In this document: positions 2,971 to 37,856 of the stretch, one piece after another
Layout: the number at the start of each line of letters is the position of its first letter
Numbering within the stretch: position 1 is the first letter of the stretch
DNA from: Hydrogenophaga sp.
GTDB lineage: Bacteria > Pseudomonadota > Gammaproteobacteria > Burkholderiales > Burkholderiaceae_C
NCBI RefSeq assembly: GCF_026125785.1
Contig: NZ_JAHCKL010000013.1
Coordinates: forward strand, 43,543-107,542
Direction: 5' to 3'
DNA length: 64,000 nucleotides
The notes under the pieces: model-generated
Told to the model about the DNA's origin: nothing
Databases searched by the model: none
What the model saw: only the letters and a program-made list of their open reading frames with translations
Made by a program: the position numbers and the translations under genes

Positions 2971-4283
2971 GCAATCCCGTTTCGGAAACGTTCTTGGAAG
3001 TGGCCGTCATCGGCGGTGGCCCCGCCGGCCTGATGGCGGCAGAGGTGATGAGCCGCGCCGGCGTGTCCGTGCACGTGTTCGACGCCATGCCTTCGGTGGG
3101 GCGCAAGTTCCTGCTGGCAGGCAAAGGCGGCATGAACCTCACCCACGCCGAACCCTTGCCCGCCTTCGTGTCCCGCTATGGCAGGCAGGCAACACGCGTG
3201 CAGGCATGGCTCCAGGCGTTCGGTCCGCAGGCCGTGCGCGACTGGGCGAACGGGCTGGGCATAGACACCTTCGTGGGCAGCTCCCAGCGCGTATTTCCGT
3301 CCGACATGAAAGCCGCACCGCTGCTGCGCGCCTGGCTGCACCGCCTGCGGCACCCAGCGCCCGGTGGCGCACCGGTGCAACTGCACATGCGCCACCGCTG
3401 GCTGGGCTGGACGCCAGAGGGCGCGCTGCGCCTGGGCACCCCGCAGGGCGAACGCACGGTCCAGGCGCGTGCCACGGTATTGGCGCTCGGTGGTGCCAGC
3501 TGGGCGCGTCTGGGCTCAGACGGCGCCTGGTTCCCGTGGCTGCAGGCCGCGGGTGTGCCCGTGGCACCGCTGCAACCCAGCAACTGCGGCTTCGACGTGG
3601 TGGGTGGCTGGACCCCGTTCTTTGCCGAACGCCATGCGGGCCAGCCTTTCAAGTCGGTCGCCATCCGCGTGCGAGACGACGCGGGTCAGGTGCTGTTCCA
3701 CCGCAAGGGCGAGTTTGTCGCCACCGCCACCGGCGTGGAGGGCAGCCTGGTCTATGCCGCTTCCAGCCTGCTGCGCGAACAGATCCAAGACCACGGGCAG
3801 GCCCGCTTCGAGCTGGACCTGCTCCCCGACCGCACGCCCGAGCAGGTGCTGGCCCAGGTGGCCCACCCACGGGGCTCGCGCAGTGTCTCCAGCCACCTCA
3901 AAAGCCGGCTGGGTCTGGACGGCATCAAGATGGCCATCGTCAACGAACTGCTGGACAAAGCCAGCCTGCACGACCCGGCCCGGCTTGCCGGCGCGCTCAA
4001 GGCCCTGCCCGTCACGCTGGCGCAGGCGCGGCCGATCGACGAAGCCATCAGCACCGCAGGCGGGGTGCGGCTGGACGGGTTGGACGAGCACCTCATGGTG
4101 TCGGCGTGCCCGGGCCTGTTCTGTGCGGGAGAGATGCTGGACTGGGAAGCGCCCACCGGCGGCTACCTGCTGACCGCTTGCCTGGCCAGCGGCGTGGTGG
4201 CCGGGCAGGGCGTGCTCGCCTACCTCGCCACAGAGCTCACACCGTCTCAGCTACCACCCAGCACCGACAGATCCAGCGTATAG
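2967..4283 (+). CDS. NAD(P)/FAD-dependent oxidoreductase of the HI0933/BaiN-like family
   Basis: A 438-residue flavoprotein of the HI0933-like group (TIGR03862-type by overall pattern). The N terminus has the dinucleotide-binding loop GGGPAGLMAAE at about residues 14-24, followed by the family signature GRKFLLAGKGGMNLTHAE. The C terminus carries the second FAD-contact block, GLFCAGEMLDWEAPTGGY. The physiological reaction of this subgroup is not established. The gene overlaps the upstream helicase by 4 bases. Its 3' end overlaps the convergent DOPA-dioxygenase-like gene by 37 bases, so the two transcripts would be antisense at their ends. Confidence 0.85.
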   Translation: MSNPVSETFLEVAVIGGGPAGLMAAEVMSRAGVSVHVFDAMPSVGRKFLLAGKGGMNLTHAEPLPAFVSRYGRQATRVQAWLQAFGPQAVRDWANGLGIDTFVGSSQRVFPSDMKAAPLLRAWLHRLRHPAPGGAPVQLHMRHRWLGWTPEGALRLGTPQGERTVQARATVLALGGASWARLGSDGAWFPWLQAAGVPVAPLQPSNCGFDVVGGWTPFFAERHAGQPFKSVAIRVRDDAGQVLFHRKGEFVATATGVEGSLVYAASSLLREQIQDHGQARFELDLLPDRTPEQVLAQVAHPRGSRSVSSHLKSRLGLDGIKMAIVNELLDKASLHDPARLAGALKALPVTLAQARPIDEAISTAGGVRLDGLDEHLMVSACPGLFCAGEMLDWEAPTGGYLLTACLASGVVAGQGVLAYLATELTPSQLPPSTDRSSV

Positions 4284-4603
4284 GACCGGCCCAGCCACAG
4301 CGCACTGTCGCGGTGGTCACCCAGCTCGTCGCCGGTATTGGGGTGGATGAACACATCCAGCCCCCCATGGTTCAGGGCCAGCCAGCCCACCACATGGCTG
4401 AAATTCGCCGGCTCAAAGGCCAACTGGTAGCTCCAAGCCGGATGAGGCCCCACAGGCCGCTCATGAAACCGCCCCATCTCCACCCTCGCCGCCAACTCCA
4501 GCCCCACCAGTTCACGCAAGGCCCACGCAGCATCGCGCGAAGCGGCATCGAAGTAGACGTGGGCGTGCCAACTGTGGATGTGGCTGGGATTGCGAGCGGT
4601 CAT
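4247..4603 (-). CDS. DOPA 4,5-dioxygenase family protein
   Basis: A 118-residue protein with the histidine pattern HIHSWHAHVYF at its N terminus and HNDR-type acidic and histidine positions further on (NHGGLDVFIHPNTGDE), as in the small bacterial DOPA 4,5-dioxygenase-like family. These are assumed ring-cleaving extradiol enzymes, but most bacterial members have no proven substrate. The ATG at 4603 is chosen because the family starts just before the first histidine motif; the longer frame upstream would read into the flanking direct repeat. The ffs-side island begins only 17 bases upstream of this start, so its native promoter may have been altered by the insertion. Confidence 0.8.
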   Translation of the reverse strand: MTARNPSHIHSWHAHVYFDAASRDAAWALRELVGLELAARVEMGRFHERPVGPHPAWSYQLAFEPANFSHVVGWLALNHGGLDVFIHPNTGDELGDHRDSALWLGRSYTLDLSVLGGS

Positions 4604-4620: not shown

Positions 4621-4636
4621 AGGGTGACGAGCCTTG
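4621..4636. repeat. Left copy of 16-bp direct repeat (ffs 3' end duplicate)
   Basis: The sequence AGGGTGACGAGCCTTG is repeated exactly at 5645-5660. On the minus strand it reads as the last residues of the SRP RNA plus its flank (CAAGGCT then CGTCACCCT). The bases just outside the 16-mer differ between copies. It is read as the distal attachment-site copy left by insertion at the 3' end of ffs. Confidence 0.85.
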
Positions 4637-4756
4637 GCATTGCCAAGTTGCTGAAAAATACAACTAAATAAATAACTTGTGAGATTTTTATTCGTCGCAA
4701 GTGATACAGGGCGGTGCGAACCCCATGCTAGCCGAGTCCAACTCCAACTCCAGAAC

Positions 4757-5515
4757 CTACGTCGTTGCAATGCTCGTTGGCCGCGTTGTCGCAAGAAGGT
4801 GTGCTTGACCCATAGCTCTGTCGAGCAGGACCACACCGTCGAAGCCGGTTGAGTATGTGGCCTCCAATGTGTGGGAGGGGATGTGCACCGCCGTGGAGCC
4901 TGTGAATCCCTCTGCGACGATGAGCAGATAGACGGTTGACGTCTTTTGGCGGTACGCACTCAGCTTGGGTTCTTTCCCATGTATCGCCTTGCGGAGTCTC
5001 GCCGGGTCTAGAGAGCCAACCGACCACGCCTTCACCGAGTGCCACCGCTCGAACTGCCAGTCCTCAATATAGTGAATAAATACGGTCGATACGTAGGTCC
5101 AGAGAGGAGACCCCAAGCAATCGACCCGAACTTTCCAATCTTTACTTTCACGGCCTGAGGCGTGCTGAAGCACGAGTTCTGCGATCTGCCGCGCAGCGTC
5201 CTCTCTATCGACAGTTCGTGCCAGATCGATCTCGCGCTGAAACAAAACAGCGACATCTATGCCGAGTCCCAGATGGGCGATGTTCCGCGCTCTAGTGCAC
5301 ACTTTCCGTCGCTGTGCCTCGCCGCTCTTTACCGTCTCATTCACGAGTTCCGTCACCTCGATTCCGACAGAGCCTCCCGCAAGCATCACATCTGGACTTT
5401 CACCCGGTACTTCTTCTCCCAACTCATGAGGCCACACTCCGGGCAAGGCTTCCCGTGCAATGCGGACAAACGCGATCTCTCGGGCTTTCTTTTGGTCGGC
5501 GGTGTTTCGACTCAT
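4757..5515 (-). CDS. Unknown-function island gene, possible PD-(D/E)XK-fold protein
   Basis: A 252-residue protein I cannot name. The segment SPDVMLAGGSVGIEVTEL resembles the D...(E)x(T/K) core of PD-(D/E)XK-type folds: an acidic residue, a short hairpin, then GIEVTEL. The C-terminal half has the pattern often seen after it, a basic helix (RKAIHGKEPKLSAYRQK) followed by a hydrophobic strand (STVYLLIVAEG) and a late FDGVVLLDR strand. No signal peptide or membrane span is seen. The start at 5515 (MSRNTADQKK) fits better than the in-frame ATG eight codons upstream, but neither has a strong ribosome site. It is the only gene of the direct-repeat-flanked island and is lower in GC than all neighbours. 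A nuclease or defence role is only a guess. Confidence 0.6.
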   Translation of the reverse strand: MSRNTADQKKAREIAFVRIAREALPGVWPHELGEEVPGESPDVMLAGGSVGIEVTELVNETVKSGEAQRRKVCTRARNIAHLGLGIDVAVLFQREIDLARTVDREDAARQIAELVLQHASGRESKDWKVRVDCLGSPLWTYVSTVFIHYIEDWQFERWHSVKAWSVGSLDPARLRKAIHGKEPKLSAYRQKTSTVYLLIVAEGFTGSTAVHIPSHTLEATYSTGFDGVVLLDRAMGQAHLLATTRPTSIATT

Positions 5516-5585
5516 ACAGAGACCGGTCAAACCTGCCATGTGACCTCACGTTGAACGCAACGTGTCACAGTCGGGTGCTACAAGA

Positions 5586-5640
5586 GGGCCTTATGAGGCC
5601 TTTGGTCTCGACAACCTGTTGATGCACAACAGGTTTTTTA
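5586..5640 (+). terminator. Tandem hairpins with T tract, plus strand, inside the island
   Basis: A small hairpin GGCCT-TATG-AGGCC (about 5587-5600) is followed by an 8-bp hairpin AACCTGTT (5613-5620), loop GATGCAC, AACAGGTT (5628-5635), and then a T run. This is a good intrinsic terminator for rightward transcription, yet no plus-strand protein gene precedes it in the island. It may end a short untranslated RNA from about 5540, or insulate the element. Confidence 0.6.
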
Positions 5641-5644
5641 TAGA

Positions 5645-5660
5645 AGGGTGACGAGCCTTG
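5645..5660. repeat. Right copy of 16-bp direct repeat (native end of ffs)
   Basis: Exact match to 4621-4636. This copy covers the last 7 residues of the predicted SRP RNA (CAAGGCT on the minus strand) and nine bases of its 3' flank. It is the copy contiguous with the complete RNA gene. Confidence 0.85.
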
Positions 5661-5750
5661 ACCCCGGCACTGGCTACACAGTTAGGGCTGCTTGGTTCCC
5701 CACCTGACCCGGTTGGCCGCTTCACCATGCGGGAAGGCCCGTCGAGGGCT
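5654..5750 (-). ncRNA. ffs: Signal recognition particle RNA, small bacterial type (4.5S)
   Basis: On the minus strand the region contains the domain IV core GTCAGGTGGGGAACCAAGC (a GGAA tetraloop closed by GG/CC, then the AGCAGCC internal loop), the part bound by Ffh. The flanks fold back: AGCC at the 5' end pairs with GGCT at the 3' end, GAC with GTC, CCCG/CA with TG/CGGG around a bulge, and TGG with CCA, giving one rod of about 97 nt. With Ffh it targets nascent membrane proteins to the translocon. It lies between purM and the island; the 3' terminus is the direct repeat. Exact transcript ends are not determined. Confidence 0.85.
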
Positions 5751-5779: not shown

Positions 5780-6907
5780 TCAGCGCAATTGCAAGTCCTC
5801 GTTGCCGAAGGTGACGTTGATGGGTTCGATGATGAGTTGCTTGGGGCCGGCTTCGACCTGGCCGGCGACCAGGGCGGACACGCCTTGTGCACGGGCGATT
5901 TCCACCGTGCGTTCGGCTTCGTCGGCGTGGACGAAGAGTGCGAAGCCGGCGCCCATGTTGAGGGTGCTGTAGGCCTCGCGGTCGTCCTGTTTGGCGTGCT
6001 GCTGCATGAACTTGAGCACGGGCGTCACTTCGGGGATGCGGGTGATGCGGTAGGTGAGTTCTGCGGGGTGGCGCAGCAACTTGCGCCAGCCGTGGCCGGT
6101 GATGTTGGCGCAGTAGCGCGGGGTGATGCCGGCGCGGTAGAGCGCTTCGGTCACGGGGGAGTAGAGCACGGTGGGCGCGAGCAGGGCTTCGCCGTAGCTC
6201 AGGCCGGGGGTGACTTCGGTGAGGTAGCCCTGCGGCAGGCGTTCGGCCAGCTTGCGCGCCAGGCTCAGGCCGTTGGCGTGGATGCCGCTGGAGGCCAGCA
6301 GCACGATGGCGTCGCCCGCGCCCAGGCGGTCACCGACGGAGAGGCGTTCCTTGGGGTTGATGAGGCCGGTGCAGGACGCGGCGAGGTCGATGCGGCCGGG
6401 CTCCACGATGCCGGCGAGCGCGGGGGTCTCGCCGCCGCCCCAGGCCACGCCACAGGTGTCACAGGCTTTCTTCCAGCCGGCCACCAGGGCCTGGGCGCGC
6501 CGGGCGTCGCCAAACCAGTCGCTGCCGCCGGCGGCCCAGTAGGCCTGCACCACCAGGGGCGTGGCGCCCACGGTGATGAGGTCGTTGATCGCCATGGCGA
6601 TGGTGTCCTGCGCGATGCCTTCGTAGTAGCTGCGGCCGGTCAGGCGTGCCATTTCGTCGGCCACCAGGGCCTTGCTGCCCAGGCATTCGACGATGCTGGC
6701 GAGGTAGAACGGGCCCACGTCCACCACGTAGGCGGATTCGCCGCGGGAGGCGGCGATTTCAGAGAATCCGTGTGCGCCCAGGTGGGCGCCGGTGGCGGCG
6801 GCGGCGCGCTGGGCTGCCACTTTCAGGGGGTCGATCAGGTCGTAGTTGACGCCGGCCTGTTCGTAGCTCAGCGTGCCTTCGGCGGCGGGGGAGGTGGGGG
6901 ATGACAT
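5780..6907 (-). CDS. purM: Phosphoribosylformylglycinamidine cyclo-ligase (AIR synthetase)
   Basis: Fifth step of purine synthesis: ATP-dependent closure of FGAM to aminoimidazole ribonucleotide. The 375-residue protein begins the domain with LSYEQAGVNYDLID, the typical family opening, and has the glycine-rich and acidic metal/ATP segments DLITVGATPLVVQAYWAAGG and GGGETPALAG of the PurM/HypE superfamily. The ATG at 6907 is chosen over one 21 codons upstream because the latter would run into dnaX and because a GATAAT box lies only 6 bases before 6907. The gene is divergent from dnaX with about 60 bases between starts, so the two promoters nearly abut. ffs follows downstream on the same strand. 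Confidence 0.95.
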   Translation of the reverse strand: MSSPTSPAAEGTLSYEQAGVNYDLIDPLKVAAQRAAAATGAHLGAHGFSEIAASRGESAYVVDVGPFYLASIVECLGSKALVADEMARLTGRSYYEGIAQDTIAMAINDLITVGATPLVVQAYWAAGGSDWFGDARRAQALVAGWKKACDTCGVAWGGGETPALAGIVEPGRIDLAASCTGLINPKERLSVGDRLGAGDAIVLLASSGIHANGLSLARKLAERLPQGYLTEVTPGLSYGEALLAPTVLYSPVTEALYRAGITPRYCANITGHGWRKLLRHPAELTYRITRIPEVTPVLKFMQQHAKQDDREAYSTLNMGAGFALFVHADEAERTVEIARAQGVSALVAGQVEAGPKQLIIEPINVTFGNEDLQLR

Positions 6908-6913
6908 GGGGGG

Positions 6914-6919
6914 ATTATC
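6914..6919 (-). promoter_or_regulatory. Putative -10 box of purM, leaderless spacing
   Basis: GATAAT on the minus strand, separated by six C residues from the purM ATG at 6907. Transcription starting about 7 bases after the box would begin at or next to the start codon, so the mRNA may have no leader. There is no Shine-Dalgarno sequence in this interval. Confidence 0.5.
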
Positions 6920-6955
6920 CGGGATCGCCGGGGCGGGCCGCCGGGGGGTGCCCCG

Positions 6956-6961
6956 TAGAAT
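6956..6961 (+). promoter_or_regulatory. Putative -10 box of dnaX, leaderless spacing
   Basis: TAGAAT followed by seven bases (GCGGGGC) and the dnaX ATG at 6969. As with purM on the other strand, the spacing predicts a transcript starting at the initiation codon. The match is imperfect. Confidence 0.4.
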
Positions 6962-6968
6962 GCGGGGC

Positions 6969-8861
6969 ATGTCCTATCTCGTGCTCGCCCGCAAGTACCG
7001 CCCCAAGACCTTTGCCGAAATGGTGGGGCAGGCGCATGTGGTGCAGGCGCTTTCGAACGCGTTGACGTCCCAGCGGCTTCACCACGCGTACCTGTTCACC
7101 GGTACGCGCGGCGTGGGCAAGACCACGGTCTCGCGCATCCTGGCCAAGTCGCTCAATTGCGTGGGGCCGGACGGGCAGGGCGGCATCACCGCCGAGCCCT
7201 GCGGTGTCTGCCAGGCCTGCACCGACATCGACAGTGGGCGCTTCGTGGACTACACCGAGCTGGACGCCGCTTCCAACCGGGGTGTGGACGAGGTCCAGGC
7301 GCTGCTGGAGCAGGCGGTCTACAAGCCGGTGCAGGGGCGTTTCAAGGTCTTCATGATCGACGAAGTCCACATGCTGACCAACACGGCTTTCAACGCCATG
7401 CTGAAGACGCTGGAGGAGCCGCCCGAGTACCTGAAGTTCGTGCTGGCCACGACCGACCCGCAGAAGGTGCCGGTGACGGTGCTCTCCCGCTGCCTGCAGT
7501 TCAACTTGCGCCCCATGGCACCCGAGACGGTGCTGGAGCACCTGCAGCAGGTGCTGCAGGCCGAACAGGTGACGGCCGACGTGCAGGCTCTGCGGCTGCT
7601 GTCGCGCGCCGCGCGCGGCTCCATGCGCGACGCGCTTTCCCTCACCGACCAGGCGATTGCCTTTGGCGGTGGCCAGTTGCAGGAAGCGGCGGTGCGCCAG
7701 ATGCTGGGGGCGGTGGACCGCTCGTATGTGCTGCGCCTCATCGATGCGCTGGCGCGTGGCGACGGAGCCGATGTGGTGGATACGGCCGAGGCGTTGCGCG
7801 TCAACGGCCTGAGCGCGGCGTCCACCCTGGAGGAAATGACCGGTGTGTTGCAGCGCATGGCGGTGCTGCAGGCCGTGCCTGGGCGTGCGCCAGCCGAAGA
7901 CCATGACGACCCGGACGAGCTGCGCATTGCCGAACTGGCCCAGGCGCTGCCGGCCGACGAGACGCAACTGCTCTACAGCCTGTGCCTGCATGGCCGTGCG
8001 GAGCTGGGCCTCGCGCCCGACGAGTACGCCGCCTTGACCATGGTGCTGCTGCGCTTGCTGGCCTTCAAGCCCGGTGGGTCGGCCGCGGCGGCCCCGGCGG
8101 AAAAAAAAACACTGAAAACGGCTGAAACGCCGCCCGTGGTGGCGGCTGCTCCGGCGGTGGCGCCTGCGGCGCCGGTGCCGGTGCCGATGCCGGTGGTGGC
8201 CCGGCCGCCTGCCGTGGTGCCCGTGCCGCCTACGCGCGCCGTGCCGGTCGTGAGCACACCACCCCGCGCCGCCGAGCCCGCACCACCGGCCGAACTGGAC
8301 GAGGCCCCCTGGCCTGACGACGATGGCCCACCCTGGGAGGAAGCCAGCCCGGCGCCGCGCCGCGTGGTGGCCGTGCCTGTGCGCGATGCCGGCGACCCCG
8401 GGCCGCTGGACCAGCCGCAACCGCGCGCCGAGCGCGGTGCGCTGGCCTTGCTGCCGGCGGCCCCTGGCGGCAGCGTGGAGGGGGATTTCTGGTTCGAGAC
8501 GGTGATGCAACTGGTCAAGGCCGAAGCAATTACCGCGCTGGTGCGCGAACTCGGGCTGCAGTCGCAGCTCGTGGCGCGTGACGAGGGCCAGTGGCTGCTG
8601 CGCGTGGAGCGCGAATCGCTCAACCAGGGCAATGGCCGCGAACGGCTGGCGAACGCCCTCAAGACCCTGGGCCACGAGGTGCGTCTGGCGGTGGAGATCG
8701 GGACCGTCACCGACTCACCTGCGCGCCGTCTGGCCTACGAGGCCCAGCGGCGTCAGCAGGAAGCCGAGGCCGTGATCCTGGGCGACCCGTTCGTGCAGGC
8801 GATGATGCGCGACTTTGGCGGCAAAATCGTGCCCGGCACGCTCAAGGCCAGCAGCGTCTGA
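6969..8861 (+). CDS. dnaX: DNA polymerase III subunits tau and gamma
   Basis: Clamp-loader ATPase of the replicative polymerase; the full 630-residue product is tau. It shows the Walker [10 protein letters not shown] at about residues 45-53, a zinc site formed by C64, C78, C81 and C84, Walker [10 protein letters not shown] and the sensor region [13 protein letters not shown]. Residues from about 360 to 515 form a Pro/Ala-rich linker, followed by the tau-specific C-terminal domain that contacts polymerase alpha and DnaB. A run of nine A residues at codons 378-380 sits just after the clamp-loader core, and slipping in either direction meets a stop within 15 bases, which would give a gamma-like short product. 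Start at 6969 ([12 protein letters not shown]) agrees with the family. dnaX-ebfC-recR run in the usual order. Confidence 0.97.
8100..8146 (+). promoter_or_regulatory. dnaX slippery A run with downstream hairpin
   Basis: Nine A residues (8101-8109) are read in frame as GAA AAA AAA ACA. In the -1 frame translation stops at TGA 8123-8125, in the +1 frame at TGA 8113-8115. A GC hairpin GCCGCC-CGTGGT-GGCGGC (8129-8146) follows 20 bases later. Similar A runs in Thermus (transcriptional slippage) and in E. coli (ribosomal frameshifting) make the gamma subunit; the hairpin here is further away than in E. coli, which favours transcriptional slippage. Confidence 0.6.
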
Positions 8862-15504: not shown

Positions 15505-16686
15505 ATGGCGAACAAGGCGCTGTATGTGGTGGTGGCCGTGGCCGGTATCGGCCTGGCCTCGGGTGCGGCCTGGTGGTACCAGAACCAGCACCGTGCTGGC
15601 GCCAGCGCCGGGTCAGCGGCCAAGGTGCCGGCATCGGCACCCCAGGGAGGCGGCGGAAGTGGCGGCGGTGCAGGGGGCGCTCCCAGCGTGGAGGTCGCCA
15701 AGGTGAAGACGGTCTCGCTGCGGGACGATGCGCAAGCTGTGGGATCCCTGCGCTCGCGCCAGAGCGTGACCGTCAAGCCCGAGACCGCCGGGCGCGTTGC
15801 CCGCATCGCGTTCGCGGACGGCGCCCAGGTGCGCGCAGGCCAGGTGCTGGTGCAGCTCGACGACACCCTGCAGCGTGCCGAACTCAGCCAGGCCCAGGCC
15901 CAGCTCTCCATTGCGCGGGCCAACCTCAAACGCAACCAGGAACTCGTGGCGCAGAACTTCGTGGCACAGCGCGTGGTGGATGAGAGCCAGGCCAATCTGC
16001 AGGTGGCCGAGGCCCAGGTTGCGCTGGCCGAAGCGCGCCTGCAGCGCATGCGCATCACGGCCCCATTCGATGGCACGCTGGGCCTGCGCAGCATCAACCT
16101 AGGCCAGTACGTCAAGGATGGCGATGCCTTGGTCAACCTCGAGGACACGTCGCAGCTGACGGTGGATTTCCGTCTGCCGGAGCGCTACCAGAGTCGTATC
16201 GCACCGGGCCAGGCGGTGCAGGTGCAGCTGGATGCGCTGCCCGGCAAAAGCTTCGAGGCCAAGGTGGTGGCGGTGGATCCCTTGCTGGACGCGAACGGCC
16301 GCTCGATCTCCGTGCGCGCCGCCATGCCGCGCACCGGCGGTTCCGACCTGCGCCCTGGCATGTTCGCGCGCGTGCTCATTGTGTTCTCCGTCAACGACGG
16401 CGCGCTGGTGGTGCCTGAGGAGGCCATGGTCCCGCAGGGTGGAAAGCAGTTCGTCTACGTGCTGGACGAGCAAGGGCAGGGAGACGCGAAAAAGATGGTG
16501 TCTCGCCGCGTGGAGGTCGAACTGGGCATGCGGCGCGGCGCCGATGTCGAGATCGTCAAAGGCCTGGGCGCGAACGACACGGTGGTGGTTGCAGGCCAGC
16601 AGCGCCTGCAGCGCGATGGCACCGCGGTGCGCGTGGTCGACATGGCGCGCGGCGCGCCAGCGGCCCAGAACCGCACCAAGCCCTGA
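15505..16686 (+). CDS. RND efflux periplasmic adaptor subunit (membrane fusion protein)
   Basis: A 393-residue HlyD/AcrA-type adaptor. It has an N-terminal membrane anchor (ALYVVVAVAGIGLASGAAWW), a Gly/Ala-rich linker, a lipoyl half-domain (ETAGRVARIAFADGAQVRAGQVLVQL, written here across the motif), an alpha-hairpin rich in A, Q and E at about 120-180, the second lipoyl half (ITAPFDGTLGLRSINLGQYV) and beta-barrel and membrane-proximal domains. It joins the inner-membrane pump encoded 33 bases downstream to an outer-membrane channel. No cysteine lipobox is present, so it is held by a membrane helix. The ATG at 15505 is chosen because earlier codons give no membrane anchor. Confidence 0.92.
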   Translation: MANKALYVVVAVAGIGLASGAAWWYQNQHRAGASAGSAAKVPASAPQGGGGSGGGAGGAPSVEVAKVKTVSLRDDAQAVGSLRSRQSVTVKPETAGRVARIAFADGAQVRAGQVLVQLDDTLQRAELSQAQAQLSIARANLKRNQELVAQNFVAQRVVDESQANLQVAEAQVALAEARLQRMRITAPFDGTLGLRSINLGQYVKDGDALVNLEDTSQLTVDFRLPERYQSRIAPGQAVQVQLDALPGKSFEAKVVAVDPLLDANGRSISVRAAMPRTGGSDLRPGMFARVLIVFSVNDGALVVPEEAMVPQGGKQFVYVLDEQGQGDAKKMVSRRVEVELGMRRGADVEIVKGLGANDTVVVAGQQRLQRDGTAVRVVDMARGAPAAQNRTKP

Positions 16687-37759: not shown

Positions 37760-37807
37760 GCACGCTCGACGCTCGACCTCCCCCAGACGAATCTATTGTT
37801 CGCCAAG

Positions 37808-37829
37808 CCCACGCATTACCGTGCGTGGG
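37808..37829 (+). other. 8-bp hairpin just upstream of ilvH
   Basis: CCCACGCA (37808-37815), loop TTACCG, TGCGTGGG (37822-37829). It ends 27 bases before the ilvH ATG, close to the ribosome site (AGAGGAA), and could tune ilvH translation or stabilise the 5' end of a processed transcript. Confidence 0.55.
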
Positions 37830-37856
37830 GGAGGGCGACGAAAAGAGGAATCGCAC

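Follow-up and report, generated by a model that had tools for sequence, protein, structure and literature searches.

The ffs locus and its empty counterparts

The window, a stretch of 64,000 nucleotides from a Hydrogenophaga sp. draft assembly (G000; 46 contigs, 93.84% complete), carries ffs, the gene of the bacterial small SRP RNA, and a gene of the DOPA 4,5-dioxygenase family. The two are separated by an interval of about 1 kb with a direct repeat at each end (Table 1). The repeat, AGGGTGACGAGCCTTG, is identical over 16 bp in both copies. A search of the window allowing up to three mismatches gave two matches, both exact, a number also reached in 14 of 100 shuffled sequences. In the whole assembly (4,167,306 bases searched) the window's pair represents the only exact copies, confirming the repeat reported in a preliminary description of this DNA; two further matches with two mismatches each are located on other contigs. 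The same description counted only the last 7 nt of ffs in the right copy. This has to be corrected, as Rfam places 14 of its 16 bases inside the ffs model. The GC content of the element is 54.7% compared to mostly 66–73% in flanking 500-base windows, in agreement with the AT-richer interior described before. The element is situated mid-contig (C5:48163-49202 of 107,542). An AIRS/PurM-like gene lies between ffs and dnaX (5780-6970, minus strand); among 31 same-genus loci, a match to it at ffs was present only in G029 (L056, 93% identical). Elsewhere, the window harbors an ilvH RNA motif (37786-37853, plus strand; RF02993, 93.4 bits).

Table 1. Features of the ffs element and its neighbors, in window coordinates.
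Feature	Position	Strand	Basis
DOPA 4,5-dioxygenase-family gene, native neighbor at the empty site	4247..4603	-	PF08883, E 1.5e-34
Distal core, putative displaced original ffs 3′ end, adjoining the dioxygenase gene	4621..4636		exact repeat; layout as in empty sites L040 and L041
Distal arm-like pair, GTGATACA (4701-4708) and decayed GTGCGAAC (4714-4721)	4701..4721		11/14; +78 from core, an offset shared with relatives
Cargo gene, 252 codons counted from its own ATG	4757..5515	-	83% protein identity to L113:1259-2017; dN/dS 0.14
MAGLTGLC, putative fossil of an integrase start (8 codons, in frame with cargo)	5516..5539	-	start position shared with ten ffs integrases or remnants
Proximal arm-like pair, GTGTCACA (5562-5569) and GTGCTACA (5575-5582)	5562..5582		14/14 against GTGNYACA pair, -85 from core
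Stem-loop with T-run, terminator-like, facing ffs	5613..5635	+	weak; in L033, a paired change preserves the stem (by eye)
Proximal core, ffs 3′ end (14/16 bases), presumably restored by the element	5645..5660		exact direct repeat; core shared with relatives at their ffs ends
ffs, bacterial small SRP RNA gene, insertion target	5647..5743	-	Rfam RF00169, 62.6 bits

ffs was sought in 60 relatives and matched in 55. Its surroundings were taken from 31 same-genus genomes; in G008, ffs lies at a contig end and no 3′ flank is visible. The 3′ flank was highly variable across these genomes. In nine of the 31, no more than about 150 bp separate the end of ffs from a conserved host gene, namely the dioxygenase gene in two (G011 and G012) and an HI0933-like gene in seven. 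In both dioxygenase genomes (loci L040 and L041), a single copy of the repeat core links ffs straight to the dioxygenase gene, representing the empty site. The gap between core and dioxygenase start is 16 nt in G011 and 15 nt in G012, and 19 nt follow the distal core of the window, where the start of the gene was set by alignment to relatives. A 16-bp repeat alone could arise by chance or by local duplication, in which case the interval would be native sequence. This explanation is extremely improbable, as the pair is the sole exact one in the assembly and as the empty sites, the differing base composition, the full islands and the shared ends (see below) contradict it.

Full islands at ffs and their ends

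Larger elements occupy the same site in related genomes. In G023 and G028, a protein composed of DUF6538 plus Phage_integrase is encoded next to ffs and transcribed away from it. With the G028 integrase as query, matches at E <= 1e-20 were obtained in 30 of 399 family genomes. At one locus per genome, eight of these integrases reside at ffs, 19 come with a tRNA or tmRNA gene somewhere in the locus and three with neither. The four best matches were all at ffs, while the lower-ranked ones were mixed. In a maximum-likelihood tree of 23 rows, which includes 14 of the 22 non-ffs loci and omits a fragment from G438, nine ffs integrases formed one clade (support 99/96) nested near tRNA-associated relatives. 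Relatives of the G028 integrase in phage and plasmid collections were remote (8 phage and 44 plasmid records, best places all below 60% identity).

The core 14-mer is present twice in only two of the 399 family genomes. One is the window's genome and the other G310, in which the integrase lies between two copies separated by 14,771 bp. When mismatches were allowed, both cores were detected in six islands with a DUF6538 tyrosine integrase at ffs (G310, G074, G023, G444, G252 and G143), and the distance from core to core ranged from 8,994 to 14,771 bp. The genus and the family of the window's genome both contain circulating full ffs islands. The preliminary description had proposed an insertion at the ffs 3′ end with duplication of the target end. 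Both the empty sites, in which one core joins ffs to the dioxygenase gene, and the tyrosine-recombinase islands at the same site, two observations by which it had suggested checking this proposal, agree with it.

The G252 island contains type I restriction and methylase genes. This island (L103) is flanked by two full ffs matches (779-875 and 15543-15639, 64.1 bits each), which suggests that a whole SRP RNA gene is carried or was duplicated by the element. A Pfam scan of eight full-island proteins and two proteins of the related contig L113 (see below) revealed no conjugation gene. Two genomes were excluded from the group, namely G438 with an integrase fragment and G006 with a VirD4-like gene adjoining ffs, both without arms. 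In G006 (L036/L108), the VirD4/TraG-type coupling-protein gene extends from about -1931 to -59 relative to the ffs end without arm repeats, and is perhaps part of a conjugative element of other descent that shares this end of ffs.

The ends of the full islands exhibit paired GTGNYACA repeats in a 13-nt register at a near-fixed distance from the core, which are candidate arm-type binding sites of the integrase. Right-end pairs start 82–95 bp from the proximal core (L144 excepted). At the left end, the pairs of G310, G074, G023, G444, G009, the window and L113 start 78–79 bp inward of the distal core. The left pair of G143 is positioned at 111, and the distal copy there extends further into ffs. 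Imperfect pairs also occur in relatives (G310: right 11/14, left 12/14; G009: right 11/14). The right pair of the window scored 14/14 with a control P(14) of 0.0003, calculated from 10,467 random 45-base segments. The left pair scored 11/14 at the shared offset, its second repeat GTGCGAAC being the decayed one of the four; P(>=11) was 0.0044 in the same control, the left-end segments (50 bases; L113: 70 bases) being slightly longer than the 45 bases of the control. The pattern itself selected the right ends of L134-L144, which makes their arm scores circular, and the scores of the loci that supplied the motif are partly circular as well. Left ends offer a cleaner test, though they had been seen before scoring. 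The score of L144 (10/14) is understated, because its pair at -80 fell outside the scored segment, and the distal ends of L103 (G252) and L105 were omitted from scoring. Finally, the distal ends of the window element and L113 share 75% identity over 96 bp.

One gene behind an integrase-like start

The element contains one convincing ORF (4757-5539, minus strand) of 260 aa, consistent with the single unfamiliar gene noted previously. Against Pfam it gave nothing above cut-off, and searches of NCBIfam and PADLOC were empty at E <= 1. A Catalase_C identity was rejected (E 0.12, under the Pfam cut-off), and one weak PHROG match led to a family without assigned function (E 0.0025). Neither Pfam nor PADLOC nor PHROG gave an integrase match for this ORF, so that the element lacks the recombinase of its own that characterizes an IME.

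The beginning of the ORF resembles an integrase. In ten ffs elements, the integrase (a remnant in G009) starts 120–145 nt from the first core base, and the start peptide resembles MAxxxGL. The ATG of the window ORF is located at 121 nt and opens the sequence MAGLTGLC, leading in frame to MSRNTADQ, where the cargo proper starts. The putative fossil is short, only seven residues (MAGLTGL) being identical to the start of the G437 integrase (MAGLTGLFLR). An intact DUF6538-type integrase next to ffs is absent in the window, where the putative eight-codon start is all that remains. The search with the G028 integrase found no ffs-family integrase at E <= 1e-20 in the 93.84%-complete assembly; nine other Phage_integrase matches, with targets that may or may not include ffs, are present. 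The apparent first codons of the integrase at the start of the ORF point to a deletion within a once-complete island. The cargo would now be translated from the integrase start. No consensus sigma-70-like promoter was detected between 4500 and 5900, and two terminator-like sites were found versus a shuffle mean of 1.4.

When 84,980 species genomes were scanned with a peptide pattern, a sole close relative of the cargo emerged, on L113, a contig labelled Rubrivivax sp. MAG. The match begins at residue 9 of the window ORF, and the fossil is absent from L113. Comparison of the two genes yielded a dN of 0.09 and a dS of 0.63, and the resulting ratio of 0.14 indicates purifying selection on the cargo as judged from this pair. 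L113 comprises an HNH endonuclease gene, the cargo and an ATPase-like gene, of which the first and the last match PADLOC models. A distal arm and core like those of the window follow 3.4 kb beyond the cargo. Because the gene past this core is 91.9% identical to the one that follows the distal core in the ffs element of G009, L113 very probably constitutes the distal part of an ffs island, the ffs end of which would lie off the contig.

Further relatives are rare. An alignment search with the cargo gave matches in two of 330 order genomes, G000 included, and no relatives were found in viral contigs, plasmids and phages with the cargo, a three-row alignment and a homologue from G281 as queries. 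A weak match in G354 (E 4.1e-4 over 87 residues) was set aside. The fused form of integrase start and cargo occurred in no other genome (399 family, 330 order and 84,980 species genomes). A PD...GIE-x-T motif is conserved in the cargo and common to the 27%-identical G281 protein. We take this motif to be reminiscent of PD-(D/E)xK nucleases, and the cargo product is possibly nuclease-like. The AlphaFold model of the cargo, calculated from a two-row alignment, had a mean pLDDT of 37.4 and was disregarded.

Decay at ffs and origin of the element

A pattern combining core and arm matched in 17 of the 399 family genomes, and among the matches listed none was obtained with the reversed control pattern. 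Eleven newly fetched pattern sites were all located at ffs according to Rfam. Three matching IMG/VR contigs (L114-L116) carried no ffs motif and were discarded as chance matches. An integrase reads from the start position in five of the 17 (G074, G143, G252, G444 and G437, the last one cut by a contig end), while the other 12, including the window, are devoid of an integrase reading frame. Five of the 11 integrase-less sites outside the window were checked (G077, G189, G453, G273 and G271), and here the start peptide is kept and then breaks off. Integrase loss with persistence of the proximal end is common at ffs, which suggests that islands tend to lose their other parts before the ffs-proximal end. 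In the same genus, the element of G009 spans 2,063 bp and includes integrase pieces along with both cores, and G003 has a proximal end of the window type with no distal core within 10 kb. Unlike mere proximal leftovers, the window element has also kept the distal end and one gene. At L134, L135, L136, L137, L140 and L143, right-arm repeats adjoin ffs with no integrase frame behind, as if only the proximal end of the island had survived.

We consider it very likely that the element arose by deletion from an ffs-targeting integrative element and is now a CIME-like form without integrase, in which one gene was kept. At the level of sequence, comparison with relatives establishes the target, the duplication, the empty site, the shared ends, the integrase-like start and a larger relative sharing the cargo and the distal end. 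Loss by deletion in place and the order of the deletions are what we infer beyond this. A tyrosine integrase would have inserted the ancestral island at the ffs 3′ end, whereby the island end would have restored this end and the original one would have been displaced by 1,024 bp. One deletion would have fused the cargo start in frame to the eight leading codons of the integrase, and a second would have removed the stretch between cargo and distal arm. The remainder would be core, arm, integrase start, one gene, arm and core, in this order. An intact island with this cargo plus an integrase was not found, L113 ending before its own ffs and integrase end, and intermediates between the L113-like and the window form were not seen. 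The tight fit of the deletions to the cargo ORF speaks against this origin, as it is not predicted by in-place deletion without selection.

Two other origins relate to the collapsed larger island and the cargo unit moved in trans that had been put forward in the preliminary description. If collapse is taken in the sense of an assembly artefact, a draft assembly might contain an artificial 1-kb version of a larger island. Such an artefact is highly improbable because the element is placed well inside its contig and includes both arms as well as an in-frame join, which are not created by collapse at a 16-bp repeat; moreover, no ffs-type integrase was found elsewhere in G000 at E <= 1e-20. The second origin is a mobile one-gene unit, excising and inserting at ffs with an integrase that a full ffs island provides in trans. 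The identical cores, the recognizable arms, the purifying selection on the cargo and the full islands circulating in genus and family would suit such a unit. We nevertheless regard it as unlikely, since the ORF opens with what look like integrase codons, G000 lacks an ffs-family integrase at the threshold given above, one of four arm repeats has decayed, remnants without integrase are frequent at ffs (12 of 17 pattern matches) and the fused form was unseen in all other genomes searched. It is equally doubtful that the ffs integrase clade generally supports non-autonomous units moved in trans, in which a single gene sits directly behind the integrase start between two arms. Full ffs islands would move such units as the integron integrase moves cassettes.

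With deletion from an ffs island as the favored origin, our analysis reveals a group of integrative elements that target the SRP RNA gene, characterized by a single integrase clade and recognizable ends. A short pattern can separate full islands, scars and minimal forms at ffs, and the 1-kb form offers a simple natural substrate for testing mobilization in trans. Among the matches listed from the open-access PMC literature, there was no description of this ffs integrase clade (none for DUF6538) or of a one-gene ffs element.

In Burkholderiales, ffs joins the RNA genes that serve as docking sites of islands. As in the islands of tyrosine integrases at tRNA and tmRNA genes, according to the Islander account (PMC4383910), the target end is restored and the displaced fragment is found at the far end; the window element differs in that the target is ffs and the copy is without integrase. 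Three further reports describe P. aeruginosa genomic islands flanked by srpRNAs (PMC6299553), a pneumococcal prophage inserted into ffs (PMC8637289) and a Tn7-like element downstream of the SRP RNA in V. cholerae (PMC9608740). These share ffs or its 3′ side as target with the window element; they reside in other hosts and are much larger, and the V. cholerae element is a transposon. CIMEs, according to PMC5704250, have lost their integration genes, have kept both attachment ends and use a site of related elements. They derive from ICEs or IMEs, whereas the parent of the window element would be an integrase island, conjugative or not, that targeted ffs and left a single gene. Like a CIME, the window element has lost its integrase and retains attL and attR.
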